A stretch of 64,000 nucleotides of DNA, taken from Crossaster papposus (Eukaryota; Echinodermata; Asteroidea; Velatida; Solasteridae). How positions within the stretch are numbered: position 1 is the first letter of the stretch; every line of letters begins with the position of its first letter. Shown here piece after piece: positions 27,419-51,467 of this stretch. The notes beneath the pieces are model-generated. The model was not told where the DNA came from. It saw only the letters and a program-made list of their open reading frames with translations, and searched no databases. The DNA lies in contig JBAIAA010000535.1 in NCBI GenBank assembly GCA_037893245.1, forward strand, positions 1-64,000. Reading direction: 5' to 3'. The translations under genes were made by a program, and so were the position numbers.

Positions 27419-27427
27419 CTAACGTGT

Positions 27428-31396: not shown

Positions 31397-32422
31397 GTAT
31401 GAACACTACTAATTCCATTTTGGCACATAATATTTAAGTAATTTTGGATCAGAAATATTTGATTTATCATACAGCTATTAATTAAATTACTACACTGTAC
31501 CAAATAACCGTAAAATAACGGGATATTTTCAAGACACACTACCGTAATTTTACTTCCAAAACGCGTTAAAATACAAATACGGCGATATTTTTTTTCAGGT
31601 TGAAAACCCCGTTTTTATGGTTATCTGTACAGTGCTATAGTGCTCACTTGCTGTACAAAATGAAGCAGGCCGAACGCATCAAATCGATACACCCAAAACC
31701 GAAACGCACATTATACAAGTACCCTTCAATGAATTTTGATTGTATAGGACACGTACACCGTCTATACCATGTCGTATGAAACCGTCTAAAACGCAAGAAC
31801 ACTAATGCATCCTTCCACGTAGCGCCACCATTGATCATGATTCGCTCGTGCCCACCACCCACACTAGACGCTTGGGAAAAGACGCTGGGTCTTATTTGAC
31901 TCGTATAGACACGATAAGAAGAAAGTTAACCCGTGACGTGCGAGGTCAACATTTCCGCATCAGCACAACGTTCAATCGTGTCAACTCAGCTGATTGTGTC
32001 CCCTGAATTTATTAAAAAAACTATGGGGCTCTTGGATCCCTGGCGGCCGGAGCAACGTATATCTTGTGTACACAGACCCCCGCGTCGCCAACAAGAAAAT
32101 CGGTCGAATTCTTCCTAATTTTATTAAAAAGTTGAAAACAATCCCCGTTCCGCATTCACTTAGTTACAAAGCAAGATGGAGGACAACGAAATTAACTAGA
32201 ACAGCTGATCGTATAGGCGCGGACCAATCACAGGGCTTTTGTCAATGTTCAACACTCCCACTGGGGCCGTTTTCGCAAAAGTGATTACGCGATGCAATTC
32301 GAACGGTCAGGTCAAAACTTCTTCCGGATAAATCTGCGAAGCTCGATTTGCGTTTCTCAGCGCCCAATGTGGGCGGTGGGCACGAGTGAATGATCATGTT
32401 GACTTTTTTTCATAAATTATAG
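31397..32422. other. Intron 4
   Basis: Contains a small TA-flanked MITE (next entry). The rest shows no exon; frames of 61-96 codons at 31933-32284 overlap each other and lack splice support. Confidence 0.4.
31491..31637. mobile_element. Small TA-flanked MITE, TACACTGTAC ends (intron 4)
   Basis: Left end TACACTGTACCAAATAACCG, right end CGTTTTTATGGTTATCTGTA then CAGTGCTA, an imperfect inverted pair with one extra base on the right. It has the same TACACTG-type end as the 23493 element. Confidence 0.6.
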
Positions 32423-32726
32423 ATCGCCGTATTATCTATCCTTCCAAGACTTGACAAGTTTGGGCAGTCAGTAGGTAGGTACAATAACATGCTGCACATA
32501 ATGTGCAAACAGAAAGGTGTACGCTATGTTGACGTGAACGAAGGATTTGAGGAGAGGCACGACTGGCTATGGTGCGGAGATGGTGTTCATCTCAGCGATG
32601 ATTACGGAGCACCATTGCTTGTGGAGCTTGTGCATCAAGCAATAAACAAGACAATGACTCCTGCGCCGCTCCCACCAACAAAGACAAAGGCACCCAAAGT
32701 AGTTGCTACACCGCCAAAGAAATCTG
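32423..32726 (+). CDS. SGNH-hydrolase gene, exon 5 (catalytic Asp/His block)
   Basis: Acceptor TTTTTCATAAATTATAG, donor TCTG|GTAATT; phase 0 in, phase 1 out. It encodes IAVLSILPRLDKFG, then CKQKGVRYVDVNEGF and WCGDGVHLSDDYGAPLLVEL, then a Pro/Lys/Thr linker. DGVHLSDDYG is SGNH block V (DxxH, catalytic Asp and His). With exons 3 and 4 all four signature residues are present, so the domain could be catalytically active. Confidence 0.8.
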
Positions 32727-33506
32727 GTAATTGTTACATTTATTTCCATTCAAATGTTGAGTCTAAATGAGCTGAATAAGAGTGTATTTTACAACAAGTC
32801 TCGTTCAGTGCTGTAAAAGAAGTTCGTGGGGCAAACTTTCATTTTGCGTGTTGCAGAATGACTACCAAAAATTCACGATTTTAGTCAAAAACACTTGATT
32901 TTGTTCACAAACAATCAAACCAATATTCTATCTCATTGGCACACAACCCAAACAAAAGACTTTGTATCGTGTAATTTTTCATCTGTTGTAAAAATGATTG
33001 CAGTGTGGAATTTAACATAATAATATTGTTAACTTTTCAGCAATGTCTACTTTGTGGAATTTCCTTGACTGTGCTATATATTACGAACACCATAATAATA
33101 TCCACTGCCTATAGCCGTTGGCCTATAGCATGCTTATGACGGCTAGCAACTAGCCAGGGGACGGGTAACCTTGCGACTACAAGTTGAATACCTTACTATA
33201 ATCGATACTAGAAACTTCATCATAATTTGTGATGTGAACTGGGAAAACCCTTCAATTTGTGAAATTGTTTGTTGTCATCAATTCCCGGATCAGATGCATT
33301 GCATCCCCGGAATGATGTGAATTTGTGAAGCTATAGCCGCATAAGGGTTTTAGATGCGATGCATACAATTAATTCTAAAGGTACACTATTTTTACCATGT
33401 GAAGGGTTTTTGCAGGTCACATCATATTATACTTATAAATCACAACTTTGTAGCACGCTTGTGATTATAATGTATTATGAAGCCTATTATTCGTTCTCTT
33501 AAATAG
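32727..33506. other. Intron 5
   Basis: No exon or clear element. A short TGGCCTATAGCATGC / GCCTATAGCCGTTGGCC repeat occurs near 33110-33135. Confidence 0.4.
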
Positions 33507-33648
33507 CGACAGTTACGAGTTCGTGTCAGTCAGAGGCAAACGAGTCACATGAGGCCAAGTATCGTTGTCCCAAAAGAAGCCGCGTCTGCTGGACACCTCT
33601 GCTGAAGGCCATGCAAGATTTTGAGAGGATTTGCGGCGGTTACTCGCA
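33507..33648 (+). CDS. SGNH-hydrolase gene, exon 6 (Cys-rich linker)
   Basis: Acceptor TCGTTCTCTTAAATAG, donor TCGCA|GTACGT; phase 1 in, phase 2 out, agreeing with neighbours. It encodes TVTSSCQSEANESHEAKYRC, then PKRSRVCWTPLLKAMQDFER and ICGGYSQ. There are several Cys and basic residues but no named domain. Confidence 0.65.
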
Positions 33649-33954
33649 GTACGTTTCCACTGATAATACAGAAAGAAAATTGTCAGTTTTAGAGGGGGTT
33701 GAGGGAAGGAAAATGTTATCTGGATTTAGTGTGTTAACTTAAATATATCGACCATTGAAATATTGCTGAATACGTGCACTTTGGATTTCAAATAGATCGT
33801 TTTTTACATAAATATTTTTTTAAACGTTTTTTTTACACCCCCAGTAATTACCTAGTTAGGCCTATCAGTTTTTCAATGGGATATGTGGGGATGCTGCGCG
33901 CGTAGCACTTAAGAGCATATAGGCTATAGAAAGTGGGAACATTTAAATTTAAAC

Positions 33955-34832
33955 GGATAACAAACAGAGCTCCCAGTGCGGATGCAACCTTTTTATGGCT
34001 TGTTGTAATATCCCGTATAGTTAGAACAAACGCGTTAAATTCAGGGCTCATCTCGTCATATTGGAGCGTGACCATGCAGTTGGAACAACACTTTTCTAAA
34101 AATCGGCGCTGCGTATCCGACGATGCCGTGAAAACAACGCATACGCACATGCCCTTGGTGGAGTGTGATGACGCACTGAATTGTTAGACAACGGCCAGGT
34201 TGTTTCAGCTGAACGCTTCGGAGATGCTCCGTAAAACGGTCAACTATAGTCGGCGCTTGGTATCTACGGCCACCTAAAATGCACTATTAATCTTGTCTAC
34301 TGTGTACTCGCAGTGGCATGCTCTACATTGGAGTTACCAAGCGCCGACTTGCCGACCGTTTTCCGGAGTATCTCCCAAGAGTTAGGCTGAAACAACCTTG
34401 GGACAATTTCACGGAGCTGCTAAGCACAAAATTTGCTATAACACAAAATAGTTTTGCTCATTAAAAACAGATTACCAGCAACAATTCTACGTGTTTTTTA
34501 TGCTAAGCCCCAAAACAGCTGATTATCAATCAAAAACAATAAAGATCACGTGAAAATTTGGTCTGTAACTTTGCTTTCGCCAAGGACAAATGTTCATGCC
34601 AAGCAAATGTTTGTGCTTAGCAGCTCCGTGAAATTGGTCCCTGTGCTGTCGCCCAACACTTCAGCGTGCCATCGATGCATCACACTCCACCATGGACGTA
34701 CATCTGCGTTATTTTTAATGGCTTCGTCGGATACGCAGCGTTTGTGCTTTCTGCGGGACATCACAACAAGCCTCAATTCCCTCTAAAGAAGTTGCATCCG
34801 CATCACCAAAAGCTCAGTTTTGTTATCTATTG
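33955..34832. mobile_element. Foldback element, about 320-bp imperfect inverted arms (intron 6)
   Basis: The outer ends (GGATAACAAACAGAGCTC, then GTGCGGATGCAAC) pair with the complement at 34785-34832. Inner segments also pair (AGGTTGTTTCAGCTGAA with TTAGGCTGAAACAACCT; GTCGGCGCTTGGTA with TACCAAGCGCCGAC). A separate 242-bp MITE (34400-34641) has inserted in the right arm. Frames of 78-100 codons on both strands reflect the symmetry and are not genes. Confidence 0.75.
34400..34641. mobile_element. MITE with GGGACAATTTCACGGAGCTG ends, nested
   Basis: Left end GGGACAATTTCACGGAGCTG continuing CTAAGCACAAA; right end is its complement (one mismatch). TIRs are about 30 bp. The interior contains TATGCTAAGC and TTGCCAAGCAAA words. 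A more diverged relative is at 36363-36573. Confidence 0.8.
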
Positions 34833-35104
34833 AGCACTGAGTATAATGTTATTTTCACTTTATATATAATAATTATGTATATACTCCGCTAGATCGACCG
34901 TTAGGTGAAAATCCCATAGAGTTGTGCACAAATTAATTAATTTTATATACCCTATAAACTAACCCTAACTCAGCCAAACTTCGGAAATATGCTATTTAGA
35001 CGCAAACGTATGAAATAAAGTTAAAAAAAATACTATTTACGGTTTTACGAAATCAAATTATAGTAAGTTATGAATTATTGTTTTCAATGCGGTTTCTTTG
35101 CAAG
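34833..35104. other. Intron 6, right part
   Basis: AT-rich, nothing recognised. Confidence 0.4.
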
Positions 35105-35207
35105 ATGCTGCAGCAACAAGGCAGTCATGACTGGCCCGGATGCTAGCTGCAAGGGGAGTGTTACCTATGCCCTTCCAAATGCTAAGGCATCAATGTACAA
35201 GCACGAG
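35105..35207 (+). CDS. SGNH-hydrolase gene, exon 7
   Basis: Acceptor GCGGTTTCTTTGCAAG, donor GAG|GTATGT (strong), phase 2 in and 0 out. It encodes CCSNKAVMTGPDASCKGSVT and YALPNAKASMYKHE. Cysteines here and in exon 6 may form a small metal-binding or disulphide module. Confidence 0.7.
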
Positions 35208-36076
35208 GTATGTTAATACACCGTGAAAGTTGACTTCCGGGACTATCGAATAGGAGCTTCAATGTGTAAAGCCAGTAGTTTTTTGAAAATTTTCGTTTTG
35301 ACACTGTTCTTTTTAATAAGGTAGATAGGGCCTACAAACTTTTAGAATAATATTATTTTTCCTTTCAATTTACAAAATGTGAACGTTCTATCAAATTACG
35401 AAAACATATAGTTTCGTCATTACGTACCCTACCAGATTTTACTCAGCAAGATATGGAACCGAGGGACTCCCCCTTAGTTCCCCTATACCTATACACTCTC
35501 TAAAAAAAATTTCACCCTTAACTTTTACCACTTGCTACATATAATTTTGTCCCTCTAAAAGCATGAGAAGTTGCAGTCTTTTCGTCGTCGCCATTATACC
35601 GCATAATACGTGCGCTAGGTCTAGCCTACACGTGCGCCAGCTTGACTGTATTAATTGCGTCGCCTTGTAGTTGCTATTAGGTGGGCGGGGTTTACAGTCA
35701 AATTCAGAAGAAAAAAACCCACACACACCATGAATCAAAAACCATCATTTAGACCAGACTCTTCTTGTGGCGAGTCTGGTTGGCGCAGCGGTTCTTTGTT
35801 AACAATATAGTTTCGGTTTGTAGTCCCTGCATGATTTGGTGTGTTTTCCCATGAATGTTCTTCGGTTTTTTTCTCCCACTGAAACTACAATTTGTTCACG
35901 TTGTCTGCATGTTTTTACTGTAATCAGTAAATTACACTGAATGGGCACCGCTACACAGTCAAACAATATAAATATGTTCAATTAACTGCATGAATCTTGC
36001 AGCAACACAATACTTTAAAATTGATTGGTGAAATATTTCGTTAATATGAATTTTGTATATAATTAAATTACTATAG
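35208..36076. other. Intron 7
   Basis: No exon recognised. A small hairpin (CCAGACTC...GAGTCTGG, 35754-35779) is visible. Confidence 0.4.
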
Positions 36077-36235
36077 ACGACAACGAAAGACAAACCGAAG
36101 ACAACTTTGACATCACCTAAGAACACCCTCGTAGATGCTTGGGACACGGAAGTTGAGTGTTTCCTGTGTGGTCAGGTGATGATAGACGAGGATGAATTTC
36201 TGGATCACTTTGTTGCTAACCATAGTGTGAAGACG
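36077..36235 (+). CDS. SGNH-hydrolase gene, exon 8 (C2H2 zinc finger)
   Basis: Acceptor AAATTACTATAG, donor ACG|GTATGT, phase 0 at both ends. It encodes TTTKDKPKTTLTSPKN, then VECFLCGQVMIDEDEFLDHF and VANHSVKT. The finger is C-x2-C-x12-H-x4-H, a single classical C2H2-type finger, suggesting nucleic acid or protein binding. A hydrolase-like domain joined to one zinc finger is unusual for a metabolic esterase and suggests a nuclear or regulatory protein. Confidence 0.8.
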
Positions 36236-36362
36236 GTATGTATAATGTGTCTTTCATTTGGGGTTATGTATAAAAGGTGTTACGATTTTCAAACCTTTTT
36301 TCGGAATTTATGAATCACTAACGTTGACGTTCAACGTTAAAATGCGGTAAGTATGGGTTCTA

Positions 36363-36573
36363 GGGCCAATTTCATAAAAACAAATGTGCTAAGCACAAAG
36401 AGTCTACCAGCCAAAACTTCACGAGCTTTTTATGCTAAGCAAAACTGGTTGAATACCAGTCACAAACAATAATCATCACCTGGAAATTTGCTTTGTCACC
36501 TATTTTGTTTGCCAAGGAAGCCTTTTCATGTTAAGCAAATTGTTGTGCTTACATGTTTTATGAAATTGACCCC
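36363..36573. mobile_element. MITE with GGCCAATTTCATAAA ends (intron 8)
   Basis: Left GGGCCAATTTCATAAAAAC, right GTTTTATGAAATTGACCCC; inner GTGCTAAGCACAAAG and ATGCTAAGCAAA resemble the element at 34400. It lies wholly inside the 390-bp intron 8 and makes up over half of it. Confidence 0.7.
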
Positions 36574-36625
36574 TGGTCAGTTTCAAAAGTTTTTGCTTTG
36601 ATTTCTTTTCTGATTATCTGCGTAG

Positions 36626-36775
36626 GAGTTGCTTAGTGAGAAGGAAGAGGTGGGCGGCGGACGAAAGAAGGTAACTGGCAACAAAAAGGTGGACCGCATC
36701 GCCCGAGTTCTGGCAGACGTACTGGAAGAATTCCCCGGGCAAGACAGAAATATCCACATTTCAATCAATACTGTG
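36626..36775 (+). CDS. SGNH-hydrolase gene, exon 9 (also in frame with transposase ORF1)
   Basis: Acceptor TTTCTGATTATCTGCGTAG, donor GTG|GTAAGT (consensus), phase 0. It encodes ELLSEKEEVGGGRKKVTG, then KKVDRIARVLADVLEEFPGQ and DRNIHISINTV. If the donor is not used, the same frame continues without a stop into ORF1 for a further 1469 codons. So this exon could end either the spliced hydrolase gene (joined to exons 10-11) or form the start of a fusion protein with the PHD/transposase module. Confidence 0.75.
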
Positions 36776-36838
36776 GTAAGTTTGCGGAAACAAATTCAGT
36801 TTTTCCGAAAACGAAATTCTGCAAAATTTGTTAAAACG

Positions 36839-39800
36839 ATGTGGAGATATAATTATTTAGGCATAAGGGAAAAAGTACGGGACATAATCCGATCTGGTTT
36901 AGTTGGTTCCCCAAACCCTCTCATCACCGACGCAGACCCCGACATCACTGACGCAGAACCCGACGTCAGTGACGCAGACCCAGACATCACTGACGCAGAC
37001 CCCGACATCACTGACGCAGAACCCGACGTCAGTGACGCAGACCCAGACATCACTGACGCAGACCCCGACATCACTGACGCAGAACCCGACGTCAGTGACG
37101 CAGACCCCGACATTACCGATGCAGACCCCGACATCACCGATGCAGACCCCGACATCACCGACGCAGATCCCGACGTCAGTGACGCAGACCCCGACATCAC
37201 CGACGCAGACCCTGACGTCAGTGACACAGACCCCGACATCACCGATGCAGACCCCGACATCACCGACGCAGATCCCGACGTCAGTGACGCAGATCCCGAC
37301 ATCACTGACGCAGACCCCAACATCACTGACACAGACCCCGACATCACCGACGCAGAACCCGACATCTCCGATGCAGACCCCGACATCACCGACGCAGCCC
37401 CCGACGTCAGTGACGCAGACCCCGACATCACCGACGCAGACCCTGACGTCAGTGACACAGACCCCGACATCACCGACGCAGATCCCGACGTCAGTGACGC
37501 AGATCCCGACATCACTGACACAGACCCCGACATCACTGACGCAAACCCCGACATCACCGACGCAGACCCCGACATCTCCGATGCAGACCCCGACATCTCC
37601 GATGCAGACCCCGCCATCACCGACGCAGACCCCGACGTCAGTGACGCAGACCCCGACATCACCGACGCAGACCCTGACGTCAGTGACACAGACCCCGACA
37701 TCACCGATGCAGACCCCGACATCACCGACGCAGATCCCGACGTCAGTGACGCAGACCCCGACATCACCGACGCAGACCCTGACGTCAGTGACACAGACCC
37801 CGACATCACCGATGCAGACCCCGACATCACCGACGCAGATCCCGACGTCAGTGACGCAGATCCCGACATCACTGACGCAGACCCCAACATCACTGACACA
37901 GACCCCGACATCACCGACAAAGACCCCGACATCTCCGATGCAGACCCCGACATCACCGACGCAGACCCCGACGTCAGTGACGCAGACCCCGACATCACCG
38001 ACGCAGATCCCGACGTCAGTGACGCAGATCCCGACATCACTGACGCAGACCCCAACATCACTGACACAGACCCCGACATCACCGACAAAGACCCCGACAT
38101 CTCCGATGCAGACCCCGACATCACCGACGCAGACCCCGACGTCAGTGACGCAGACCCTGACATCATCGACGGTGTTAAGTTTTCTGATATTAAAGTAAAG
38201 ACCCAAAATAGTCCAAATTGTTCACCCGTCTCTCCCAATATCACTTCTTCTGATGGTCATTCCAAGAGCTATCCACCTTCCCAAAATGAACCATCTTCCA
38301 TCACATTATATTGCATTTGCAGGCAACCCTATCATGATTCTAGGAGTATGATTGCCTGCGATGACTGCAACGAGTGGTATCATTACCCATGTATTGATCT
38401 CGAACCTCAATCAAGACGCAAGTCATATCTAGACAAAGTTCAATTTTTATGTGGTCGGAACGGTTGTAATGACGGAGAAAGGGTTTTTTCGATCAGTTTG
38501 TTTAATCAAAATTCATCAAACAAGGAGCATACATCGACATTTTCCAGTCCACCAAAACATCAATTAGATCCCAAATCTAAGGTAACTGGTTGGATGCAAT
38601 CAAACCTAAATACTCCTGATCAACATGTCAATGACAATAATTCATCAACCGTCGATCCAACTTTCAATATTTCCCCCATACTCCCAACCAGATCACCCGA
38701 AAACACATCCTCAATCAAACCGCCAGATAATGATAGGTTCACAGTAGAAAATGAACCCTGCCCTTCCGAAGCAGTTGATTTGTCAATAGGAGCACGCAAA
38801 GTTGATTTTGAAAATTCAATCAGTACACATGAAAATGAATCAATGCCTGAGACTGGGACTTGTACATCGACATTTTTCAGTCCACCAAAACATCAATTAG
38901 ATCCCAAATCTAAGGTAACTGGTTGGATGCAATCAAACCTAAATACTCCTGATCAACATGTCAATGACAATAATTCATCAACCGTCGATTCAAATTTTAA
39001 TCTTTCCCCCATACTCCCAACCAGATCACCCGAAAACACATCCTCAATCAAACCGTCAGATAATGATAGGTTGAAAGTAGAAAATGAACCCTGCCCTTCC
39101 GAAGCAGTTGATTTGTCAATAGGAGCACGCAAAGTTGATTTTGAAAATTCAATCAGTACACATGAAAATGAATCAATGCCTGAGACTGGGACTGGGAGTT
39201 TAACATACGAAATTGACAAAGTAATTCCTGAGGATGTGAGAAAAAATATGTGTGTTGAAAATGAAGAATATTCCGATCAGTGTTGTAAATTTTGGACTGT
39301 CGATTTACCACCACATAAAAGATCGTCGTTCCACGTTGATAGGTCAGAGTGGAAAAAGTTAAAATCACAGCAATCAAAGAACACATTTCTGATATCTTGG
39401 ATACATGCATTCACTAAAGGACTGAAGAAATTACACCCTTACTGTTCATTTCAATTTATACGTCATTACGTTTCTAATTCGTTCAGACAACGCACCAAAT
39501 GTGCTTTTCGCGCAAATGGCTATTGTAGTTTTAGTGATTGTAGCGTAAAATTTCAATTAATCATGCAAAGTGAAATCAATTTAAAAGTGAATGTAATATT
39601 TACAGGGAAGGTAAAGCATCAAAAAAATGAAAGACGAGCCAGATTTGTCAGAAATACCAAACGAGAGGCACTGAAAAAGGTTTTAAAATACAAAAAATCT
39701 AGACGCGAGCATCTGGACAATCTGAAAACTCTGGATGACGAAGTTTTTATGTCAGGTTGTCGTGACGAAGCACCGAATAAGGGGGTACTTTATCAAATAA

Positions 39801-41182
39801 GTAGTGAGGGAAATCAACTTTCAAATTCTAGGGAAAGTGAGATACAGGCTCTTATTGGGATGATGACAAAACAACACGATTCAAGTAAACGTATTCCAGG
39901 AATTCTAAGACACGTATCTTTAGGTCCCCCGTATGTGATTCTATATTCCCAAGACAGTGTAAAAATATATCATAATATTTCGTCAAGGGACATCATTTAT
40001 TTAGATGCAACTGGGTCAATCATACGCAATAATTCAACTTTTTCTGGATCAAAAAAGTACCAATTATATGATCTTGTAATCAGGCATCCACTAATAGGTT
40101 CTCCCCCCTTTGTGCTTGCCTCCCTGCTGACAACTGAACACAATTCAGTTCTAATCGGATTCTTTATCCAATGTTTCCTGCACTCCGAGCAGATGATTTA
40201 TGGGCATAACGGGGTTAAACCACCTTTAATGTTGATGATAGATGGCAGCCCGGCGCTGTTGCTTGCCTCTCTAAAGGCTTTTACAAACGAGTCAGTGTCC
40301 GATTATTTCCATAGATGCTATAGGATCGTAACCGGGGAAGCTAAAGAGAGTGATTTCCAAAAAACTATAGTTCACTGTTGTGCCAGCCACTTCATGAAAA
40401 ATGCAGCCAAAATGTGCAGAAAATACTACCGATCAAACTTTCGTGATTCCATGTACTGGTTAGGGTTACTCCTAAAGTCTAGTAATCTAAAAGAAATTGA
40501 CGACATTGTGGAATCGATTACAGTTGTAACTAACTCTGAATTGTCCACAGATTATGTAAAAAAACACTACCACAAACTGAAAGGTAAAGTTGAAATGATC
40601 GAAGATGATGAAATCGAACTGAATTTGTTTGAAGACGATGATGAAGATGAAACCGAAGTTGATTGTAAGCAAAGCACGCCACACAATGACATTAAAGATA
40701 ATGATTTGAATATGTCCCAGGACGAATACGTAAGAAGAGCACCCAAGTCGCCATTTAAGCAGCATTTTCAACGGGTGGTCGATGATACAATATTAAAAAT
40801 AAAACAAATAGAAATGAAAATAAAAGATCCGTCCAAAATAAACAAAAATGCATATTTTGGTAAACAATTTATGTCACATTTACTTGAGTATTCCCTTCCC
40901 AGTATCGCAAATTGGTCGGCGTTACTACTACATGACACTGGCAGACATGGCATTTCAATATCTTATCAGAAACAATCCCACCTATACAACAAGCTAAAGA
41001 CGTCCAAATTACAAAATATAACTACAAATAATAGAACTCAAGGTATCATCGAAAAATCAATGCAAGAGGTAAAAAGATCAAAACTAATTTATAACAGATG
41101 TAGGAAGCTAGTTGATTTTGTTGAAATGTATGAAAGGGACATGCTCCCACTGCAACGAGAATTTTGTGAGGCTTTCTGCTAA
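36839..41182 (+). CDS. ORF1: Asp-rich repeat + PHD finger + MULE-like DDE transposase
   Basis: The first ATG in the frame is 36839 (1447 codons to TAA at 41180-41182); the frame is open further upstream through exon 9. Residues below are numbered from 36629. About 99-514: 59 acidic heptads of DITDADP type. 562-613: a PHD finger, C562, C564, C577, C580, H585, C588, C608, C613 (last pair spaced C-x4-C). 635-745 and 746-856: a tandem 111-residue duplication. About 890-990: basic, Cys-containing region, possibly DNA-binding. 1120-1260: RNase-H-like core with D1126 (YLDATGS), D1205 (MLMIDGSPALL) and C1251-x2-H1254 (CCASHFMKN), matching the D, D, CxxH pattern of Mutator-like transposases. About 1324-1350: acidic. 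The third acidic residue is not certain. PHD fingers read histone tails. No internal stop suggests a young or selected copy. Confidence 0.8.
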   Translation: MWRYNYLGIREKVRDIIRSGLVGSPNPLITDADPDITDAEPDVSDADPDITDADPDITDAEPDVSDADPDITDADPDITDAEPDVSDADPDITDADPDITDADPDITDADPDVSDADPDITDADPDVSDTDPDITDADPDITDADPDVSDADPDITDADPNITDTDPDITDAEPDISDADPDITDAAPDVSDADPDITDADPDVSDTDPDITDADPDVSDADPDITDTDPDITDANPDITDADPDISDADPDISDADPAITDADPDVSDADPDITDADPDVSDTDPDITDADPDITDADPDVSDADPDITDADPDVSDTDPDITDADPDITDADPDVSDADPDITDADPNITDTDPDITDKDPDISDADPDITDADPDVSDADPDITDADPDVSDADPDITDADPNITDTDPDITDKDPDISDADPDITDADPDVSDADPDIIDGVKFSDIKVKTQNSPNCSPVSPNITSSDGHSKSYPPSQNEPSSITLYCICRQPYHDSRSMIACDDCNEWYHYPCIDLEPQSRRKSYLDKVQFLCGRNGCNDGERVFSISLFNQNSSNKEHTSTFSSPPKHQLDPKSKVTGWMQSNLNTPDQHVNDNNSSTVDPTFNISPILPTRSPENTSSIKPPDNDRFTVENEPCPSEAVDLSIGARKVDFENSISTHENESMPETGTCTSTFFSPPKHQLDPKSKVTGWMQSNLNTPDQHVNDNNSSTVDSNFNLSPILPTRSPENTSSIKPSDNDRLKVENEPCPSEAVDLSIGARKVDFENSISTHENESMPETGTGSLTYEIDKVIPEDVRKNMCVENEEYSDQCCKFWTVDLPPHKRSSFHVDRSEWKKLKSQQSKNTFLISWIHAFTKGLKKLHPYCSFQFIRHYVSNSFRQRTKCAFRANGYCSFSDCSVKFQLIMQSEINLKVNVIFTGKVKHQKNERRARFVRNTKREALKKVLKYKKSRREHLDNLKTLDDEVFMSGCRDEAPNKGVLYQISSEGNQLSNSRESEIQALIGMMTKQHDSSKRIPGILRHVSLGPPYVILYSQDSVKIYHNISSRDIIYLDATGSIIRNNSTFSGSKKYQLYDLVIRHPLIGSPPFVLASLLTTEHNSVLIGFFIQCFLHSEQMIYGHNGVKPPLMLMIDGSPALLLASLKAFTNESVSDYFHRCYRIVTGEAKESDFQKTIVHCCASHFMKNAAKMCRKYYRSNFRDSMYWLGLLLKSSNLKEIDDIVESITVVTNSELSTDYVKKHYHKLKGKVEMIEDDEIELNLFEDDDEDETEVDCKQSTPHNDIKDNDLNMSQDEYVRRAPKSPFKQHFQRVVDDTILKIKQIEMKIKDPSKINKNAYFGKQFMSHLLEYSLPSIANWSALLLHDTGRHGISISYQKQSHLYNKLKTSKLQNITTNNRTQGIIEKSMQEVKRSKLIYNRCRKLVDFVEMYERDMLPLQREFCEAFC
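36922..38172 (+). repeat. 21-bp coding minisatellite (Asp-rich heptads)
   Basis: Units of 21 bp such as GACATCACCGACGCAGACCC(C) encode D-I-T-D-A-D-P and variants (DVSDADP, DITDAEP, DITDTDP, DISDADP). About 59 copies form mixed higher-order blocks. As the unit is a multiple of three and lacks stops, two antisense frames (435 and 463 codons) and another sense frame (431 codons, PTQTPTS type) are open over it; these are artefacts. Confidence 0.95.
38531..39196 (+). repeat. Tandem duplication of 333 bp within ORF1
   Basis: Copies 38531-38863 and 38864-39196 are about 97% alike and in frame, encoding two 111-residue blocks (PPKHQLDPKSKVTGWMQS to ENESMPETGT). Each holds a SEAVDLS segment similar to a PxDLS-type corepressor motif. 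Few differences mean a recent event. Confidence 0.9.
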
Positions 41183-41229
41183 AAAAAAAATATAAAAAAA
41201 ACTTCCTAAAACTGTAAAGTTGTCTTCAG
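41183..41229 (+). promoter_or_regulatory. Probable 3' splice site before ORF2
   Basis: Between ORF1 stop and ORF2 lies an A-rich spacer, then CCTAAAAC (branch-like) and TTGTCTTCAG at 41229. ORF2 has no in-frame ATG before its catalytic Cys (first Met is about residue 106), so entry by splicing is the likely way it gets an N-terminus. It needs a donor of phase 1; AAAG|GTAAAG at 40583/40584 is one candidate by sequence and phase. Confidence 0.5.
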
Positions 41230-42851
41230 AAAAATGGAAAAAAAGGTTAAGAACCAGCACCCCCACCAAAAAAGGTGTTTACCTAACACCGCCAGCAATC
41301 AAGTTAACATTTAAGGACAAACCGAAACGAAATCGATCTAGAAATACACAAGACATCAAACACACTGACAAAGACTCCTGTGCTTCACCTTCCCCTAAAA
41401 AGAGGTGTGAAAACCCAAAAGTAGATCGAAAAACAAAAACACCCATTCCCAAAAATCCCAAAGCAACAAAACACCTCCCACGAGGCATTCAAAACAACGC
41501 GGTATCTTGCTGGTGGATTTCAACTATACAAGCAATGAAGCCTTTCATTACATCTTCCAAATTAACCGAAACCAAATTCCAAGGAAGTGGCGTTTCTCTT
41601 TGGCGACAACTTCTACAAATTTTCCAAAGTTTAACATCAAATCAACAAAATGCAGTCTCCTTCGCTGCCGTTAAGAAAATAATAGAACAGTGTGCACTTG
41701 AAATGGGCATTAACTGCAAACAACAACAAGATGCAGCAGAATTTTATTCACAGATTATGGTGCCGTTTTTAGAAAGTTCGTGTTTGACAAATGAAATAGA
41801 AATTGCTAAAAGCGTTATGTGCCTTGATTGTGACGAAAGTGTGGTTGTTGAAAGTTCAACAATGGGTACCTTGTCTATTGCCGTTCAGGGAAGCAGTATA
41901 GAACAGTGCTTGCAGGTTTACTTTGAGGATGAAATGGTAAACGGGGGTGCGGAATGTCTTTATTGTAAGAAAAGTCGGCCAAAGAAACTGATCACTTCTC
42001 GTATTCTCAACTCCCCGTCATTATTAGTATTGCAATTATTACGATTTAGAGCTAACGAAGGACAAGGAGAAAAACTAACAACAGAGGTCACTCCCAACAT
42101 CATGATAAACTTGACAAGGTATTGCACCAACAACACTCCCTCACTATACCAACTACGGTCTGTAATTTCACACGAGGGTGGCTCGGTAAACAGTGGGCAT
42201 TACATAACTTTTGTGTACAACACAGACGACAAAACATTTACAATATTCAACGACCAAAACGTGCAAAAATCCAATATACACAATTTTGTTCAACAAACAT
42301 CACAATCTGGCTACTTATTTTTCTACGATAAAATTGAGAATACAGAAAGCATGTGTCATTCAGAACCGTTTGTTAAGCAGGCAGTCCTTAATGTAACTGC
42401 GGAAGATGAAGAATTTGTGCGTCTTCTTTGGGCATCTTTCAATGAGAAGAATTTAGACTATGTTGCTGTGCGAGATGACCCAAGTCAAAATTTTCTTTCA
42501 TTTCACCATTTGGCAACAATCTGCAACAACCCAAAATCTGCACTTTTAAAGCGACTGAAAAATATATATTCAATGTATCAGCCTGGGTGGCTAAGTGAAG
42601 TTACAGTTAATTTTTACATCGGTCAATTATGTGAAATTGCGAATCGAAAATGTCCGAGTAAATTTGCAGTAGCTCATTGCAGCGACACATTAAAAATTGT
42701 AAACAATCAGCAAACACCAGAAACATTCAAGATAATTTCCAAGAAATGTTTTGTCAACAAAAAAATATGTGGTTGCATATTTTTCCCCTTAATAGAAAAC
42801 ATGCACTCTGTACGTGATGGACAATGTCAGCAACCATATAACATGCTATGA
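41220..42851 (+). CDS. ORF2: USP-type ubiquitin peptidase fused to start of Ulp1/SENP peptidase
   Basis: Open for 543 codons; the apparent start at 41220 is TTG, so the real start probably lies in a spliced upstream exon. After a basic N-terminal tail, residues 88-372 show all boxes of peptidase family C19: Cys box GIQNNAVSCWWISTIQAM (C97), QQDAAEF, two CxxC pairs (CLDC, CLYC) for zinc, LLVLQLLRF, His box SHEGGSVNSGHYITF (H327), FNDQNV (D345) and GYLFFYDK. The usual Tyr after the Cys is Trp. Residues 440-535 then start a C48 (Ulp1) domain: GWLSEVTVNFYIGQLC and IFFPLIENMH with H529 as catalytic His. Reading is lost at about 42812 by a frameshift; ORF3 continues the domain. Such enzymes remove ubiquitin and SUMO-like modifiers. 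Confidence 0.85.
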   Translation: MSSEKWKKRLRTSTPTKKGVYLTPPAIKLTFKDKPKRNRSRNTQDIKHTDKDSCASPSPKKRCENPKVDRKTKTPIPKNPKATKHLPRGIQNNAVSCWWISTIQAMKPFITSSKLTETKFQGSGVSLWRQLLQIFQSLTSNQQNAVSFAAVKKIIEQCALEMGINCKQQQDAAEFYSQIMVPFLESSCLTNEIEIAKSVMCLDCDESVVVESSTMGTLSIAVQGSSIEQCLQVYFEDEMVNGGAECLYCKKSRPKKLITSRILNSPSLLVLQLLRFRANEGQGEKLTTEVTPNIMINLTRYCTNNTPSLYQLRSVISHEGGSVNSGHYITFVYNTDDKTFTIFNDQNVQKSNIHNFVQQTSQSGYLFFYDKIENTESMCHSEPFVKQAVLNVTAEDEEFVRLLWASFNEKNLDYVAVRDDPSQNFLSFHHLATICNNPKSALLKRLKNIYSMYQPGWLSEVTVNFYIGQLCEIANRKCPSKFAVAHCSDTLKIVNNQQTPETFKIISKKCFVNKKICGCIFFPLIENMHSVRDGQCQQPYNML

Positions 42852-43200
42852 CTCATTAAGTTGCAGCAGGGACAATCGACAAAAACTGATCATACATGGG
42901 AATGCCTTTTTCCGGTTTTTTCGCAATGGTAAAATGAATAGATACTGGAGTGAAATGCCTGGAGTCTTCCGTGACAACCAATCAGTTCCAATTAAACAAG
43001 CAAAGTGCCCTCAGCAGAAAGACGCATCCAGCTGTGGAGTATTCGCATGTCTCTATGCAGAAATGATATGCCTCAACGATCATACAATTAAAGACAATTC
43101 GGAGGCTTATAGAATATACCTCACGCTTCAAATACTAAAAAGATCTCGTATAATAGATCCTAATTTGCGAAATCTGTTTGAAGCTTACAATACTGAATAA
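42814..43200 (+). CDS. ORF3: Ulp1/SENP-type peptidase C-terminal half (+1 frame relative to ORF2)
   Basis: Continues ORF2 in the +1 frame (apparent GTG start at 42814, ATG 42817). MDNVSNHITCYDSLSC supplies the strand and catalytic Asp (codon 42850-42852). CPQQKDASSCGVFACLYAEM supplies the oxyanion Gln (43015) and nucleophile Cys (43033), with the Q-x5-C-G spacing of family C48. The protein ends at TAA 43198-43200, which overlaps an AATAAA polyadenylation signal (43197-43202). As ORF2 ends with the catalytic His and ORF3 begins just after it, a one-base gain (or two-base loss) between 42806 and 42817 broke one gene; programmed frameshifting or sequencing error are alternatives. Confidence 0.8.
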   Translation: MMDNVSNHITCYDSLSCSRDNRQKLIIHGNAFFRFFRNGKMNRYWSEMPGVFRDNQSVPIKQAKCPQQKDASSCGVFACLYAEMICLNDHTIKDNSEAYRIYLTLQILKRSRIIDPNLRNLFEAYNTE

Positions 43201-43346
43201 AAATACAACAGTATTATGTGCATTGCCGTCAATTTTTGTCAACATCCCCAAGCAAAAGAAGTACGACTTCGCCATCTGAACGGCTAGATATTACAGTTTT
43301 TCTCAATCGCGTTAACTGCAACAAAACTGACGATAAAGGGTTCATT

Positions 43347-44138
43347 AACAGGTCAAAAGAAATAAGTCCCCCCCTGGGAAATGTGCATTTTTCTGGAAAA
43401 CAGTTAGGCTCCTTTCCCTGTTACAAAAATTTAAAATGTAGTCTGAAATGTTACACATTATTGTGCAATAAAGTTTCACCCAACAGTTAACCTTCGCCTT
43501 GAAATGCTGCCATTTATTAAATGTGATGACCAATAAAAAAATGACACTTTCTTGCATAGGGATTGGACAAATGGAGAAAATCATGTTTTACAAAACAAAA
43601 TTATCTTCTTTCCTCACTTCAATTAATTTTCCTAAAGTGTACAAATGTACACATGCATTTAATGTTTTTGTTTTTGTTTTAAATTTTCTAAATTTACGAA
43701 GTACAGTAAATTAGAGTCACCCAAGCAAAACAATTTGTTTAAAGCATAAAGGTTTGTAGAAATGGAAAGTTTTTTTTGTTGGTCCTTTCGTTTCAGTAAT
43801 GAAATTAAAAACAAAAACAAAAACATTAAATGCATGTTTACATTTGTACACTTGAAAATTAATTGAAGTGAGTAAAGAATATTAAAACATTCTGTAAAAA
43901 CATGATTTTCTCGATTTGTCCAATCCCTATGCAAGAAAGTGTCATTTCTTTATTGGTCATCACATTCAATAAATGGCAGCATTTCAAGGCGAAGGTTAAC
44001 TGTATGGTGAAACTTTATTGCACAATAAATGTGTAACATTTCAGACTACATTTTACATTTTTGTAACAGGTTAAGGAGCCTAACTGTCTTCCAGAAAATG
44101 CCCATTTCCCAGGGGGGACTTATTTCTTTTGACCTGTT
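43347..44138. repeat. Long inverted repeat just 3' of the protease ORF
   Basis: The left arm 43347-43688 (starting AACAGGTCAAAAGAAATAAG) and right arm 43799-44138 (ending CTTATTTCTTTTGACCTGTT) are about 90% complementary with small indels; spacer about 110 bp. A transcript through it would fold into an arm of roughly 340 bp. It may be the terminus of the transposon module folded back, a MITE pair, or a snap-back duplication. Frames of 71-91 codons on both strands are not genes. Confidence 0.85.
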
Positions 44139-45526
44139 TAGTTGCATTGTCTTCAAATCATTAATGTTGCTTTTCAGAAAAGTTTCTTATCCTTTCTAGA
44201 GTTGCTCGTGCGACAAAACACCTAGAGAATACCAGTAGTGATAAAAAAATTTAAAAAATGGCCTCTAATCCCTTACATCTGACCCGCAAAACATAAAATG
44301 ATTTCTATCCATAAATACCACCGTCCAAAATAATACGCAAAATGCGCTGTAAACACTGATCTCTATATTAGACTGAATAGGTCATCTAGTCCAGTCAATT
44401 TACGTTAAGACCTAGAACAGAATAAAAAACGTTCAAGCGTCAAAGAACTTAAAATAAATAAACAAACAACATCTGAACAATCTAATGTTTTCTATGTTTT
44501 CAAGACATAACTTTATTCACGGTCCTAGTCACTTTTGACAGAGTTGATGACTTTCACCCGACAGTGCGCAAGTCATAGATGAAATACGTTTATTATTTTT
44601 CAAAAATTGACATTTTCAGTGAAAGATTTTAACCCGGCCCGATTTTTTTTCATTAAGGCTTTTGGCGTAAACGTTATTTTGTGTACGTTAAGAACGTTAA
44701 TTTATCTGGGAAAAAACACACGAGGTTTCTTGATTTCGGATATATTCCAAAATTGGACTCAAAGTTACGTGCATGGACACCTAAGTTTAACTTCAAATGG
44801 GTCACTTCATGGACATCATAAATGTCTTCCCCTGTTTTAATTTGACCTATTTCTGCAAAAACATTCTAAAACAAATGGTTTATTAGACATGGGGTGATTT
44901 ATTTTAAAAGACTAATATTTTTGACAGCCAAAACTATCCGAAATCCTGACCGTTTTCAAGAAAATAACTATTATTGTGTGGCAAGGTAGCAGTACATGTA
45001 TTAGGTAAATTGGTAGAAAAGGTCGTCTGCTTGTGACAAGTCTAGTTTCGCGCTGTCGCATGCGTGATGTGAACGAATTTGTTAACGGTTAACATACAGA
45101 CGCAAAAGATGAACGACACTTTTCCACTCATTGGGGGACATTAGATTTTTAGTATGTAAAAGGGTGACACTTCCCCTTCGTGACAGTGTTAACATGAATT
45201 ATATTGAATTTACTTTCAGGTTCCTATTTTGATGTAAATTGACCGCACTAATCCCCGTGCAGTGCTATCCATATCTGAATGTTTTTGTTGACCAGTACTT
45301 CCGGGGTCCTTCCAAAATTATCATGCCCTGTTTTAATCTGAATGTTTAACTTACCATGTTATTACCTTTTTTTAAGTAATAGTACATGTATGACAATTCT
45401 TTGCCGAAATTTGAATTGTTTTTGAAAGACACCGCACATTCAAGGTGTGCATTTTTGAACAAACATCCAGATCTACAATTTCCTGAGTCTCAATCCGAAT
45501 TAAAAATAAATTGCGTTCTGTATTAA
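44139..45526. other. Intron 9, non-coding
   Basis: No gene or element recognised. Confidence 0.4.
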
Positions 45527-45891
45527 AGGTAGTATACACCATTGGTAATTGCTTGAATTATCATGAATGTGTAGATTTGGGGGGTTTGTATTCTGACTTT
45601 TCAGAAGTTTTACAATCATGGATGCCGAGAAAAGCACGAAAAACAGCGTTTGTTTTCAACCGGGGTCGAGCAGTTATTCTTATGTTATCTTTGTTTTTTC
45701 GCGCTCGCCGTCCGTCGATTGCGAATTTTTCTTTATAATTTTTTTTTGGGGAATAATTACAGGATATCGAGCGCAATCCTTTTGCTGGATGCCTAGAATC
45801 ATTATTTACTTTCAATTGAGTAAGGTATTTCTTAATAATTCGGTAGTAAATATTTTCGATATCTGCAAATGGTGTAGGCCCTATACTACCT
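45527..45891. mobile_element. TTAA-flanked MITE, AGGTAGTATA ends
   Basis: Ends AGGTAGTATACACCATTGGT and CCCTATACTACCT, with TTAA directly outside each (45523-45526 and 45892-45895). TTAA duplications are typical of Kolobok and piggyBac superfamilies. The right end is followed by a 41-bp tandem copy of itself (to about 45950). No transposase; the plus frame at 45618 and minus frame at 45561 are chance. Confidence 0.7.
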
Positions 45892-45951
45892 TTAATACAA
45901 ACTATTATTATGGTGTAGGCCCTATACTACCTATAATACAAACTATTATTT

Positions 45952-46290
45952 TGACCGAGGCATTGGCCTGACACCTCCACCCCCCCCCTTCCCATGTTTG
46001 AAAAGGGGCTTATGTCTCGTCCACAGTTCTCGTTTCAGTTTTAGGTCCCGCTGATTTCTAATTTTAGTAAAATCAACCTGTCTTATCAATAATTTCTCTC
46101 CCTATTTTTTTTCTTGAGAAGAAAACAGATGGGGGGGGGGGGGGGGGGGGGGGGGGGGTGCCCCCCTCCCCCCGCTTCTGGCATCAGGCAACCGGCAATT
46201 GCGCTTAGCCTCAGGAGGCTCAGTCCATCACAGCCATCGCATCACACACGGGGCGTCCAGCCTGCAGCTTCGACATGGACACCCCATCCT
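45952..46290. other. Non-coding, with poly-G/poly-C tracts
   Basis: A G-run of about 28 bases (46132-46158) is followed by C-runs (46160-46175), a potential hairpin or quadruplex. A C-run is also at 45980-45990. Confidence 0.5.
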
Positions 46291-46297
46291 ATCGTCA

Positions 46298-46885
46298 GCG
46301 TTTTCACGAAGAGACGAATTTGGCCATGGGGAGTTGCACATTGGTTTTGAGAAAATCAGGTTTTAAGTTGGTCACTTTTTGAAAAAGAGATTTCGCCTAT
46401 TTGCAAAGCACATATTAACTTATATTTGGTACGTACAGAGAGCTAAGATCTAACACTATAACAATATACCTATTACATAACACTAACAAACTTAATTGAC
46501 GAGCAATTAATGTAGATATGAATTTGTCTGTTCGTGAAAATTCCAAATCTACGGTGGTGGCTTGTTTGCCCATAGCGCACGAATTCGTCTCTTCGTGAAA
46601 ACTTAAAAACTGGTTTTGCCCAAATTTGTCTCTTCGTGGATGTATATACAATGTATATACATTGTACGCGCGTTGTTTTTGCACTCGGAGCAACGTTATT
46701 TCTATCTACACAGGGACAAAATACAATTTGGCTGTTCGTGAAAATTCACAAATTATATTTCGTCTGTTCGTGAAAATTCCAAATCTACGGTGGTCGCTTT
46801 TTTGCCCATAGCGCACGAATTTGTCTCTTCGTGAAAACTTAAAAACTTGTTTTGACGATATCTGTCTCTTCGTGAAGCTTCTGCC
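46298..46885. repeat. GTTTTCACGAAG-motif repeat region with 236-bp tandem units
   Basis: The motif (as GTTTTCACGAAGAG or CTCTTCGTGAAAAC, also GTTCGTGAAAA) occurs about nine times. A block TGTTCGTGAAAATTCCAAAT through CCCATAGCGCACGAATT to TCTCTTCGTGAAAACTTAAA is duplicated with a 236-bp period (46527 and 46763). The segment about 46640-46745 has a diverged copy at 49232-49345. Related to the TCGTCACCG-ended elements. Confidence 0.75.
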
Positions 46886-47700
46886 GATGGCACAGCTTCA
46901 GAAGCCGCATTTTTGTGTGTAAAGAAGTAACTTAGTACCTGGAGAGTTATGAAAAAAGACTGACACGTGTAAATAACATGAAATTGGTGTATGAAAATCA
47001 ATGCCACGACGCGACCAGCGCGGCGAAGGCGAATACAACCGATTTTGTACTACATGTATTACTAATGCCTGGTCGGAGTTGTGTCGTCGTGTGTCGCATT
47101 ATTTTTTCCACACGGGAGTTGCCACGGTCTGCAGCGAAAAGGAATTATTTGGAAAGTAAGAAAAAACAAGGAATGTAGCTATACATGTAGTATTATATTA
47201 ACAAATATATTTGTCGTATTTTAGGCAAGGCTTTTTTTTATTTTAATTATTTTGAAATCGGTTCCCGATTTTGCAAGGTGCCAAAGAACACACGGCATCA
47301 TCAACAACACCAATGCATCAGCACAGTGGTTCGCAATACTTACCATAACCACAGAAGAATCCACCCAAAACTGTTAACCACCAAAGATGGAAATGCCATT
47401 TTATTGCAAAGTATGGGGGAAGGGTCAGGCAGGGGATGTTTATACTCCTACTATGGTGCCTTATGTTATATAGTTCTAGCACTATCGTGATATTTATTTG
47501 CCATTGGTGATTTGTATTGATATTTTTAGGCAACAACGTAGTAGCTATCTGATTCCCTGAAAATGACAATACTCTGGACCTTAAGTTACTCTTGGAACCT
47601 GGCTAATATCAACCAGTGCGGTTCCAAGATCGATATCAAAATATTATTGTCAATGTGTCGGCCTGGGTATGTCTGGGAATCAGCTCGTCAACTGCCGTAG
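46886..47700. other. Intron 9, right end
   Basis: No supported exon. A 70-codon frame at 47278-47490 follows an acceptor-like TTTTGCAAG, but no matching donor phase was found. Confidence 0.35.
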
Positions 47701-47729
47701 GCACTAACGATAGCCACTGCGTTTTACAG
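47701..47729 (+). CDS. SGNH-hydrolase gene, exon 10 (29-nt microexon, GC donor)
   Basis: Between acceptor CAACTGCCGTAG and the donor ACAG|GCAAGT, a textbook GC-AG donor context. It encodes ALTIATAFY plus two bases; phase 0 in (matches exon 9) and 2 out (matches exon 11). The acceptor's pyrimidine tract is weak, and the exon is inferred from phase fit rather than protein similarity. Confidence 0.4.
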
Positions 47730-47821
47730 GCAAGTTAAATGGCAATCAGAAATTCTCTTCTGATTAGAATATCTTTCTTGATGTACAAATTACAGTTTTT
47801 GTTTTTATTTATTTTTTACAG

Positions 47822-47939
47822 CATATCTTCTGGATCAATGGATGAAAATTTCAATCTGGAATTGGAGCAGCTCTTCAGTGCAGTACTTGACTGTACCGAC
47901 AGCACCAATTTTATTTACCGGATGATGACACAGGAATAG
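47822..47939 (+). CDS. SGNH-hydrolase gene, terminal exon 11
   Basis: A strong acceptor (TTTTTGTTTTTATTTATTTT then TTACAG) precedes a frame SISSGSMDENFNLELEQLFS, then AVLDCTDSTNFIYRMMTQE, ending TAG at 47937-47939. An AATAAA follows at 47970. An acidic, short C-terminal tail. It could also be the last exon of the retained or alternatively spliced forms. Confidence 0.6.
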
Positions 47940-47969
47940 ACCCCATCTGAACAATTATATGTAGCTGTA

Positions 47970-47975
47970 AATAAA
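47970..47975 (+). promoter_or_regulatory. Polyadenylation signal AATAAA
   Basis: Canonical hexamer 31 bases after the predicted stop codon of exon 11; a second AATAAA is near 48083. Confidence 0.5.
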
Positions 47976-50900
47976 CTGAATGTTCATTATTTTGTGCGAG
48001 TCACACAATGGTGTTTTGTATAAGCTGTGGTATTGGTCAGTTTACTCCAACTGCAACATTATGATAGAATTGTTTACTTGAGAATAAAAGCATGTATTTT
48101 GGCACAAATTCAGAGTGTGTTATAAGAAAAATATTTGGCTCTCCGCTCTCGGGCCATCGTAGTTTTGACTTTAGGAAAAATATCTAAGTAGAATAACATG
48201 CAATGGTAGCCATTTATAATTTGTTTTAAATGCCTGTTATATTTTTTTCAAGGGGCAAATGTAGGATGGCCCTATACATTTATATTCTAAAGACATACTA
48301 TTTTGATTGTGTGACAAATTCCATGCTTTTATCATTTTTACCATGTTTGTTTCAACAATCTGCCTGACTTAACAGCAAGACTCCAATTTATGTATGCCAG
48401 TAGGCAGTATAGTATAGTCCTGAATTGGCATGATGTATATTATTGCTACTGCCGACCACCTGTAGGGAGTACAATTGCCAATAAAGTATCCCATATATAG
48501 CATAATATCAACCGAAAATAGTTTTTTGGAAAATTGTTGGTAAACTGAAATATTAATCTACCCTCTTTTACAGGCTTCATATGAAAATCATGACTAACTA
48601 TAGGTTCAAAGAAGTGCCAATTAGACCAGACTATATTGAATGCAAAAATAAGTTACATGAAATTTTTTGGAAAAGCCAACTGTCATTTTTACATTTAGGA
48701 CAGATACTTCCATTTAGAACTCGTGTTGGGCGCAATTCAGTCTTTCTGCGCGGCGCGAACTGCTGATCTGCACGAACTGCTAATCTGCGCGAACCGTCCA
48801 TTGCGTGCGCTGCTGTGATCATGGGGAGGTACAGGTAGGCCCGAATCGGATCGCGCTGCATTCGTTGTCGGTTGATCGTGCCTCAATTGGCCGATCGTGC
48901 CACCACCAGTCGATTGCCTTCTATTTAGCACTTCCATTTAGTTCCAATGCATGAGTACTTTGGGGGTTGTTCTGCAAAAGAGAATTAAAAACTGAGAAAT
49001 AGGCTGACGGTACTTGTGCAAATGCATTTTTGATAGCGCAGATTTAGAGACTGCGCCCAAAATTCTGATTTTGGACCCCCAAAAGTAGGTTATGTTCCAT
49101 TCCCTGCAACCGACAACATTGATTTTCGGATTCAGGACATCAAACTGAGTAGAATCACACAATTTGTTTTTTGTTCCCAAACTGGTACCACTGATTTTTT
49201 TTCGGAGCATATTTTTGGGTCACGTAACACGGCCTAAATGTATATACAATCATTGTACGCGCGTTGTTTTTGCACTCAGAGCAACGTTATTTTTTATCTA
49301 CGCTGGGAAAAAAATACAATTTGGCTGTTCGTGAAAACTGAAAATTCGATTTGGGTGAAATTTCCCCCTGTATGATTTTCGTAATCTTAATGATTCAGAC
49401 TGATTTTGACAATAATAACATCGCCAGAATGTTCGTTGCTATCCACTTAATCGATTTCGGCAAAAAAACGAATTTTGAAAAAATAATGATTTTGGCCAAA
49501 TTCGTCTCTTCGTGAAAACGCTTACGCTGTGAATCAAGCGGATGAGTGCCGTCTCTAGAGTTTGGCGGCGGGTCTGGGGGACAAACTATAGAAACACCTG
49601 AGCCAACCTCTCTAAAATCGTAAGCTGTCGGACTGTGGCCGATTTATTTATGGCGGTTCTCTAGGAGATGGACAGGTGTCGAGTTTGATTGGCACATTAT
49701 GAGTACCTAGGCATCGGGTCTGTTTCCGCGTCTGTACCTTTACTTTTATATTTTGCAGTTAATAAGGATGACAGAGAAAAATGTGGGCAAACGAATTTGT
49801 AGAATTTGGCTTGTTGCTTCATCTCTGTCAAGCTTTACCCAGCAAGATATGGTTTCAGAAGGAAAACAAGGTTGAACTTAAAATAGGAAGACTTGCAGTG
49901 CCCTTCCAAAACTTGCGGCTAGAAACTGTTTGTGTATAAAGCCCAATGGATTAGTTCCTAAATAAAAACAAACAGCCTGTGGGGCATTTTTAATCAATCA
50001 CCATTGGGCCAAATAAAAAAAAAAGAGAGTTGTTGATCACCTTAGTCGTGATCAGTTCAAATCACAAAATGGTATACCAGATTGCTATGCAACGGTCAAG
50101 TACGCATCAAACAGATGATGCAATTACATTTTTAGCATAACGTCTGCGTTCAAAATGTTTACAGTTCATTTAAGTGATCACAACCTGTTTGGCCTTTCTC
50201 TGTAGAAAACTAGCGAAAAACATTTTAAAAGATAGGTCAAATTAGTTCTAAATTAATACATTAGTTTCATGAGAAATTGTGACTCATCGTGGACTCTTTA
50301 GACTCCCGAGGCATATTTTAATCGAAGCTCCGAAATGCCACCAATTGCGCTGACGATGTTATAACTTGGTTGCCACTGTATTAAGTGGAGCCGGATGGGA
50401 ATTTCCCCTTTTTTTTCCTCAAAAGGTTTTTTGTTTGTGGGTTTTCGCCCATCCCGTAAATCAGAATTGGCCTTAAACAATACTGTTTTAAAAGTTAAAG
50501 TACAGGGTATCTGTGCTTTTTTATATATATATATAATTTTTTCGAAAGAATTTGGAAGGAAGATAGTACTCAAATTATTAATTCAATTTGATTTTTTTGA
50601 GGGAGGATGCAACACCCCTAAAAGCACACTATCTATAATGTACAGACTTAATACCTCATGATAAGGTTTTGTTTTCCTGTAAGTATCCTTGTATACGTCT
50701 GTAAATAATATGCTTGTATTTTTGTGTAAAATGTTGTTAATAATAAATATTTAAAACAAATAGTCAATTCTTATAGCGCTAAATCCCTCAAAAATTGACG
50801 CTCAAGGCGCTTTACATTAAAACATGTTCATTTAAAACCCGTATTTATATATTTTTTCCTGGCGATTTTAAACATACATTTAATCAATTTAATACCCGGC

Positions 50901-51430: not shown

Positions 51431-51467
51431 ATTATTATTAATGGATCATTGCCGCACATGCGCAATA

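Follow-up and report, generated by a model that had tools for sequence, protein, structure and literature searches.

A giant DNA transposon in Crossaster papposus whose transposase is fused to predicted deubiquitinase and SUMO protease domains

Three adjacent open reading frames (ORFs) in the genome of the sea star Crossaster papposus raise the question of whether a transposase and two proteases encoded side by side belong to one mobile element and, if so, what the proteases might do for it. These ORFs are located on the same strand of a 64,000-nucleotide stretch of DNA, hereafter called the window, which comprises positions 1 to 64,000 of the forward strand of contig JBAIAA010000535.1 (C535) in GenBank assembly GCA_037893245.1. 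A first-pass annotation of this DNA described the ORFs as a transposon-like module in which a DDE transposase with a PHD finger is joined to a deubiquitinase (USP) and a Ulp1/SENP protease.

Three reading frames that form one gene

We searched the genome (1.02 Gb in 1841 contigs) with the transposase core and scored 67 of 126 candidates. The core has at least 72 matches, many of which are fragments and several of which are pieces of one copy. The closest among the matches scored, C7, is on another contig and is 99% identical to the window in the transposase core. This copy carries a stop-free frame of 2024 amino acids in which an Asp/Pro repeat, PHD, transposase, USP, and Ulp1 follow one another in that order, and the Pfam profiles for PHD, UCH, and C48 each match the frame above cut-off. 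Because C7 reads PHD–DDE–USP–Ulp1 in a single frame, the three ORFs of the window are pieces of one gene. The domains named in the first-pass annotation are therefore real, whereas its three ORFs are a single fused gene whose frame is broken twice in the window copy. The same module is present in C838 with at least two breaks.

Single PHD-transposase-USP-Ulp1 frames were also found in family B (C96 and C364, 1807 amino acids each) and in family D (C360, 2088 amino acids), both of which are distinct from the family of the window (family A). For the Pfam check, C7 and C360 were scanned over their full length, C96 as two pieces, and C364 in its C-terminal piece. In C96, the PHD finger falls just below the Pfam cut-off (23.5 versus 24). 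The Ulp1 domain of C360, which is 28% identical to that of C7, is matched by C48 only in a separate scan of the C-terminal piece; for the whole 2088-amino-acid frame the match is unlisted. As had been proposed, transposase, USP, and Ulp1 travel together, forming one protein in C7, C96, C364, and C360. None of these four uninterrupted copies has the transposase without the proteases, an arrangement that had been named in advance as evidence against a true association, and the only counter-cases are broken or distant copies. The proteases were read in a minority of the transposase matches. Among the broken copies, similarity places PHD, transposase, and USP in C489, whose frame is interrupted within USP, and C762 has the same kind of frame, likewise broken in USP, in a fetched stretch that stops before Ulp1.

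Family E (29-30% identity) is represented by three broken copies. PHD and USP precede the transposase in C92 (PHD and UCH by Pfam), where Ulp1 was not seen in the stretch read. The order in C772 is USP, transposase, and Ulp1 (C48 by Pfam), and C463 has the transposase and Ulp1 (C48 by Pfam), with no USP seen in the stretch read. The composite order for this family is PHD-USP-transposase-Ulp1, and no single copy has all four domains. Because PHD and USP are located before the DDE core and Ulp1 after it, the domain set seems to be retained while the domain order varies. Another match, C767 (22% identity; L032/L036), has a PHD finger and a transposase with a different C-terminal part. Long acidic repeats are also present in C767, and its C-terminal part contains cysteines.

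Element ends, satellite termini, and gene parts

The limits originally given for the element, 36839..43200, proved far too narrow, since its ends are at 15966 and 67826 (Table 1). Alignment of the window with C7 reveals one common unit with the same sequence inverted at either end. At the window locus this unit is 51.9 kb (~52 kb) long, and the window stops at 64000 before the unit does. The C7 element is 42.6 kb long, is built in the same way, and has a duplication of its own. The inverted ends start with ACCTGTCC. A second copy of CTGTTTTC, an exact match to the left one, directly follows C535 position 67826 beyond the window, and C7 is flanked on both sides by TTTACGCT, which likewise forms an exact 8-bp duplication.

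Genome-wide, the 112-bp end is matched at 40 places; several of these could be paired manually in inverted orientation, at distances of 1.5 to 52 kb. Eight end pairs were read, and exact 8-bp duplications were found at three of them (C535, C7, and C596). The flanks of C1257 and C656 agree at 7 of 8 bases when compared by eye, and these two look like one site that is present twice. A target duplication is absent at C164, C362, and C904. In C596 (419323-420848; L037/L038), the same ends are only 1.5 kb apart and have an exact 8-bp duplication, and this end pair is a probable non-autonomous derivative. A duplication of 9 bp had been predicted, but this reading fails in C535, and the length is 8 bp in C535, C7, and C596. 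With its inverted ends, target-site duplication, and dispersed near-identical copies that carry a transposase, the sequence at the window locus qualifies as a giant terminal-inverted-repeat DNA transposon, which agrees with the earlier proposal that the module is part of a mobile element.

Table 1. Features of the transposon at the window locus (window coordinates unless stated)
Feature	Position	Strand	Basis or remark
Transposon	C535:15966-67826; in-window part 15966..64000	+	Homologous unit in C7
Left copy of 8-bp target-site duplication, CTGTTTTC	15958..15965	.	Flank reading
Outermost left terminal inverted repeat, ACCTGTCCAAAGC...	15966..16076	+	40 genome matches
186-bp satellite array in left terminal repeat, 30 units	16159..21683	+	Repeat analysis
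Possible THAP-domain exon	22208..22600 (ends approximate)	+	Pfam THAP 4.2e-14
Possible GDSL/SGNH-hydrolase-like exon	31241..31396	+	Pfam 0.18, not significant
Possible GDSL/SGNH-hydrolase-like exon	32423..32726 (end inferred from splice-donor-like site)	+	Pfam 2.1e-4, below cut-off
Possible C2H2-like zinc finger exon	36077..36235	+	ag/gt bounds, in phase with next exon
Last exon, PHD-DDE-USP-Ulp1	36626..43200	+	Frame lesions near 41180 and within 42807-42850
In-frame 21-bp tandem repeat encoding Asp/Pro-rich stretch	36922..38171	+	
PHD finger	38312..38452	+	Pfam
Beta-rich region, WRKY-like candidate	39506..39640 (position inferred)	+	Placed from strands 107-151 of predicted model
DDE transposase catalytic region (D, D, CxxH, E)	39881..41179	+	Model, fold search, alignment
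USP (peptidase C19) domain, Cys-His-Asp triad intact	41484..42326	+	Pfam UCH 6.7e-29
Ulp1/SENP-like (peptidase C48) domain, in two frames	42745..43200 (start approximate)	+	Pfam
Foldback of ~800 bp just 3′ of transposase gene	43347..44138	.	Also in C7, C838, and C617
186-bp satellite array in right terminal repeat, inverted	55964..64000, on to 66210	-	54 units in total

On each side, units of 186 bp follow one another head-to-tail inward of the outer end, and their orientation is inverted between the two sides. Left and right arrays have 30 and 54 units in the window element and 36 and 50 units in C7, and they account for most of the terminal repeats. On the right side of C617 there are 51 units, and its left end (746439) was read for the outermost bases alone. 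Neither side of C838 has a 186-bp array within the fetched 50 kb around the copy. Arrays on both sides are present in two of the four family A copies (C535 and C7), and such satellite termini may seed genomic satellites.

Other repeats were observed in and near the element. An 812-bp direct duplicate (99.5% identical) has one member outside the transposon at 9322-10133 and the other inside at 54422-55233. A 10-bp satellite, TTACCCACCG, occupies window positions 1927-5532 with ~360 copies. The fragment at 7943-8383 (+ strand) may encode part of a Polinton/Maverick-type capsid protein, for which the sole Pfam match is Capsid_N (E 0.087, not significant).

Upstream of the last exon, the THAP and GDSL/SGNH-like exon candidates are on the same strand as the transposase gene and within the element. 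The THAP candidate has a diverged match in C838 and none in the sequence retrieved for C7 and C617. Both GDSL/SGNH-like candidates are matched in all three of the other family A copies compared, and the match to the second candidate in C617 is in two pieces. For the candidate zinc finger exon, the sole Pfam match is zf-Di19 (0.023, below cut-off). Within the last exon, the beta-rich region may be a part that resembles WRKY DNA-binding domains, as suggested by weak Foldseek matches to the predicted model (E 0.046 and above, from a match table that gives no range). The USP domain is matched by Foldseek to USP2 (8.7e-22).

Related proteins, catalytic residues, and constraint

Database searches returned 7 and 32 related proteins, with 3 common to both. 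The weakest of the 32 (P0037), a fungal USP protein, was dropped. Precomputed domains place UCH and C48 together with a transposase in 11 database proteins, including an 1842-amino-acid protein from the bivalve Pinctada imbricata in which transposase, USP, and Ulp1 are fused. We then aligned 36 members, of which one is the window core and 35 come from the databases, many of them as fragments. Pfam matched UCH in 20 of these, C48 in 12, PHD in 11, and BAG in 7. In the Rotaria protein P0033, the USP match precedes the transposase match. Six proteins (P0009, P0012, P0014, P0017, P0008, and P0004) have what looks like an additional, degenerate USP in the 300-odd amino acids that separate USP from Ulp1 (hhalign probability 95.9, E 5.2e-9, in one comparison). 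The corresponding linker in the family of the window is 135 amino acids long. In a tree of 38 cores, several of which are long-branched, the window groups with C7, P0002, family B, C489, and D.

The catalytic residues of the transposase are widely conserved. Both Asp residues are present in 38 of 38 rows, the Cys and His of the CxxH motif each in 36, and the Glu in 34 (the other four rows have a gap), and both family E rows have Asp in place of the CxxH Cys. Each residue of the USP triad (Cys, His, and Asp) is found in 19 of 20 rows. For Ulp1, the His, Gln, and Cys residues are present in 11 of 11 rows and the Asp in 9 of 11, with 8 of 19 proteins left out of this count because the motif search missed their box. 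Given the UCH profile and the Cys/His/Asp triad, the USP domain is a predicted deubiquitinase, and the C48 profile and the His/Asp/Gln/Cys residues likewise make the Ulp1 domain a predicted SUMO protease.

Between the window and C7, dS is 0.011 for the transposase, 0.011 for USP, and 0.027 for Ulp1, and dN is 0.004, 0.003, and 0.007, respectively. The underlying changes (4, 2, and 2 synonymous; 6, 2, and 2 other) are too few for a firm ratio, and the PHD finger has no changes. In the comparison of family A with family B, dN is 0.18 for PHD, 0.27 for the transposase, 0.39 for USP, and 0.34 for Ulp1, and synonymous sites are saturated except in USP (dS 2.4, ratio 0.17). With dN of 0.18-0.39 over this longer span against synonymous sites at or near saturation, all four domains appear constrained.

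Classification and possible roles of the fused proteases

The nearest solved fold to the transposase core is ISCth4. A Pfam scan at E up to 5 gives no MULE match for the window core, and none is listed for the 36 members (E up to 0.01). A CxxH motif in the DDE core marks MULEs, and this motif is present here. In anatomy, the closest relative is Rehavkus, compared by description. The passages available from PMC6446971 describe a MULE-like transposase with a PHD finger, and those from PMC10218199 describe Tribolium Rehavkus-1_TC, a 9.5-kb element with the 164-bp satellite TCsat23 in its inverted termini. A PHD finger in the transposase and satellite arrays in the inverted termini are common to both systems, whereas the Rehavkus target duplication is 9 bp rather than 8 bp, the window element is ~5 times larger, and the same passages include neither USP nor Ulp1 (PMC6446971, PMC10218199). 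Because the duplications differ in length and Rehavkus was compared by description alone, we call the element MULE/Rehavkus-like and do not file it as Rehavkus.

Transposases with Ulp1 or OTU domains are already in print, with a role that is only suggested in the available part of PMC2836005. That source cites MULEs in hydra, lancelet, and plants in which a Mutator-type transposon carries a Ulp1 protease domain, as the MULE-like element here also does. However, its available part leaves USP unmentioned for these elements, and the window element has no Pfam MULE match. The same source includes, according to a figure legend, an alignment of Ulp1 and PHD domains from Ginger1 and Mutator transposases. 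Ginger1 transposases carry a C-terminal OTU (deubiquitinase class) or Ulp1 domain, and one family has Ulp1 and PHD, but their DDE core is of the Gypsy integrase type, OTU and Ulp1 never occur together in the table, and USP is absent from the part available (PMC2836005). A Trichomonas vaginalis protein cited there joins a USP-class domain (Peptidase C19) to a transposase, but one of another family (transposase_11), and PHD and Ulp1 are unmentioned. In the open-access literature, which leaves out most subscription papers and Repbase reports and in which an absence is thus weak evidence, we found no description of a transposase with both USP and Ulp1, or with these and PHD. The combination of USP and Ulp1 is the new part of the element, and the PHD finger and satellite termini are common to Rehavkus/MULE-like transposons.

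The occurrence in one protein of a transposase, a histone-mark reader, and domains of the ubiquitin- and SUMO-stripping types suggests an element that is itself equipped to undo host silencing. Transposons are silenced via SUMO- and ubiquitin-dependent pathways. Judging from what is known of these protein families, the DDE core would excise and insert the element, the WRKY-like zinc domain and possibly the THAP domain would recognize the terminal repeats, and the PHD finger would anchor the protein on histone H3 tails. The PHD finger may also steer integration, as the first-pass annotation proposed. Proteins at the ends or at the target site would then lose their ubiquitin and SUMO to the transposase-borne USP and Ulp1 domains, of which the latter could also act on its own protein. 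We assign a probability of roughly 0.6 to the reading that this is a MULE/Rehavkus-like giant transposon whose USP and Ulp1 domains most likely reverse SUMO- and ubiquitin-dependent silencing locally and shield the transposase from turnover. We also lean slightly toward a broader view, namely that the element belongs to a widespread and ancient lineage of giant animal transposons in which a lasting fusion gives the transposase a deubiquitinase and a SUMO protease that erase the two modifications behind its silencing and turnover, with the set being selected, its order reshuffled, and its termini possibly seeding satellites.

An accidental arrangement, in which a transposon fragment lies beside host protease genes or nested insertions have formed a chimera, might be expected in a window that is rich in repeats and whose copy has broken frames. 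It is nevertheless refuted because uninterrupted fused copies exist (C7, C96, C364, and C360), and fused proteins are also found in the databases; we give it almost no weight. Domestication of a transposon as a host gene, with subsequent duplicates, would be in keeping with long conserved frames under constraint. This explanation is very improbable given the inverted ends, the target duplications, the 99% identical copy on another contig, and the 1.5-kb end pair in C596, which is likewise flanked by a duplication.

Other alternatives concern the task of the proteases. They might serve the transposition reaction and DNA repair, such that removal of ubiquitin or SUMO from repair factors at breaks favors productive end joining. 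Fusion to the transposase would put the enzymes at the breaks, and a repair role has been proposed for the Ulp1 and OTU domains of Ginger transposases (available part of PMC2836005). We consider this role unlikely, as the PHD finger is better suited to a role in chromatin, although the results above are equally compatible with repair and with anti-silencing. Even more doubtful is the proposal that Ulp1, and perhaps USP, processes a large polyprotein or stabilizes the transposase without acting on host chromatin. The fused product is very long, the Ulp1 fold includes viral maturation proteases, and P0014 has one weak Pfam match to an adenovirus endoprotease (0.014), but the active sites have the residues characteristic of the USP and Ulp1 families.

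With a transposase that has USP, Ulp1, and a histone reader, the proposal that host ubiquitin and SUMO marks are edited by transposons becomes directly testable. Such proteins would also supply natural chromatin-targeted erasers. In addition, the element links the terminal repeats of a transposon to satellite arrays with as many as 54 units.
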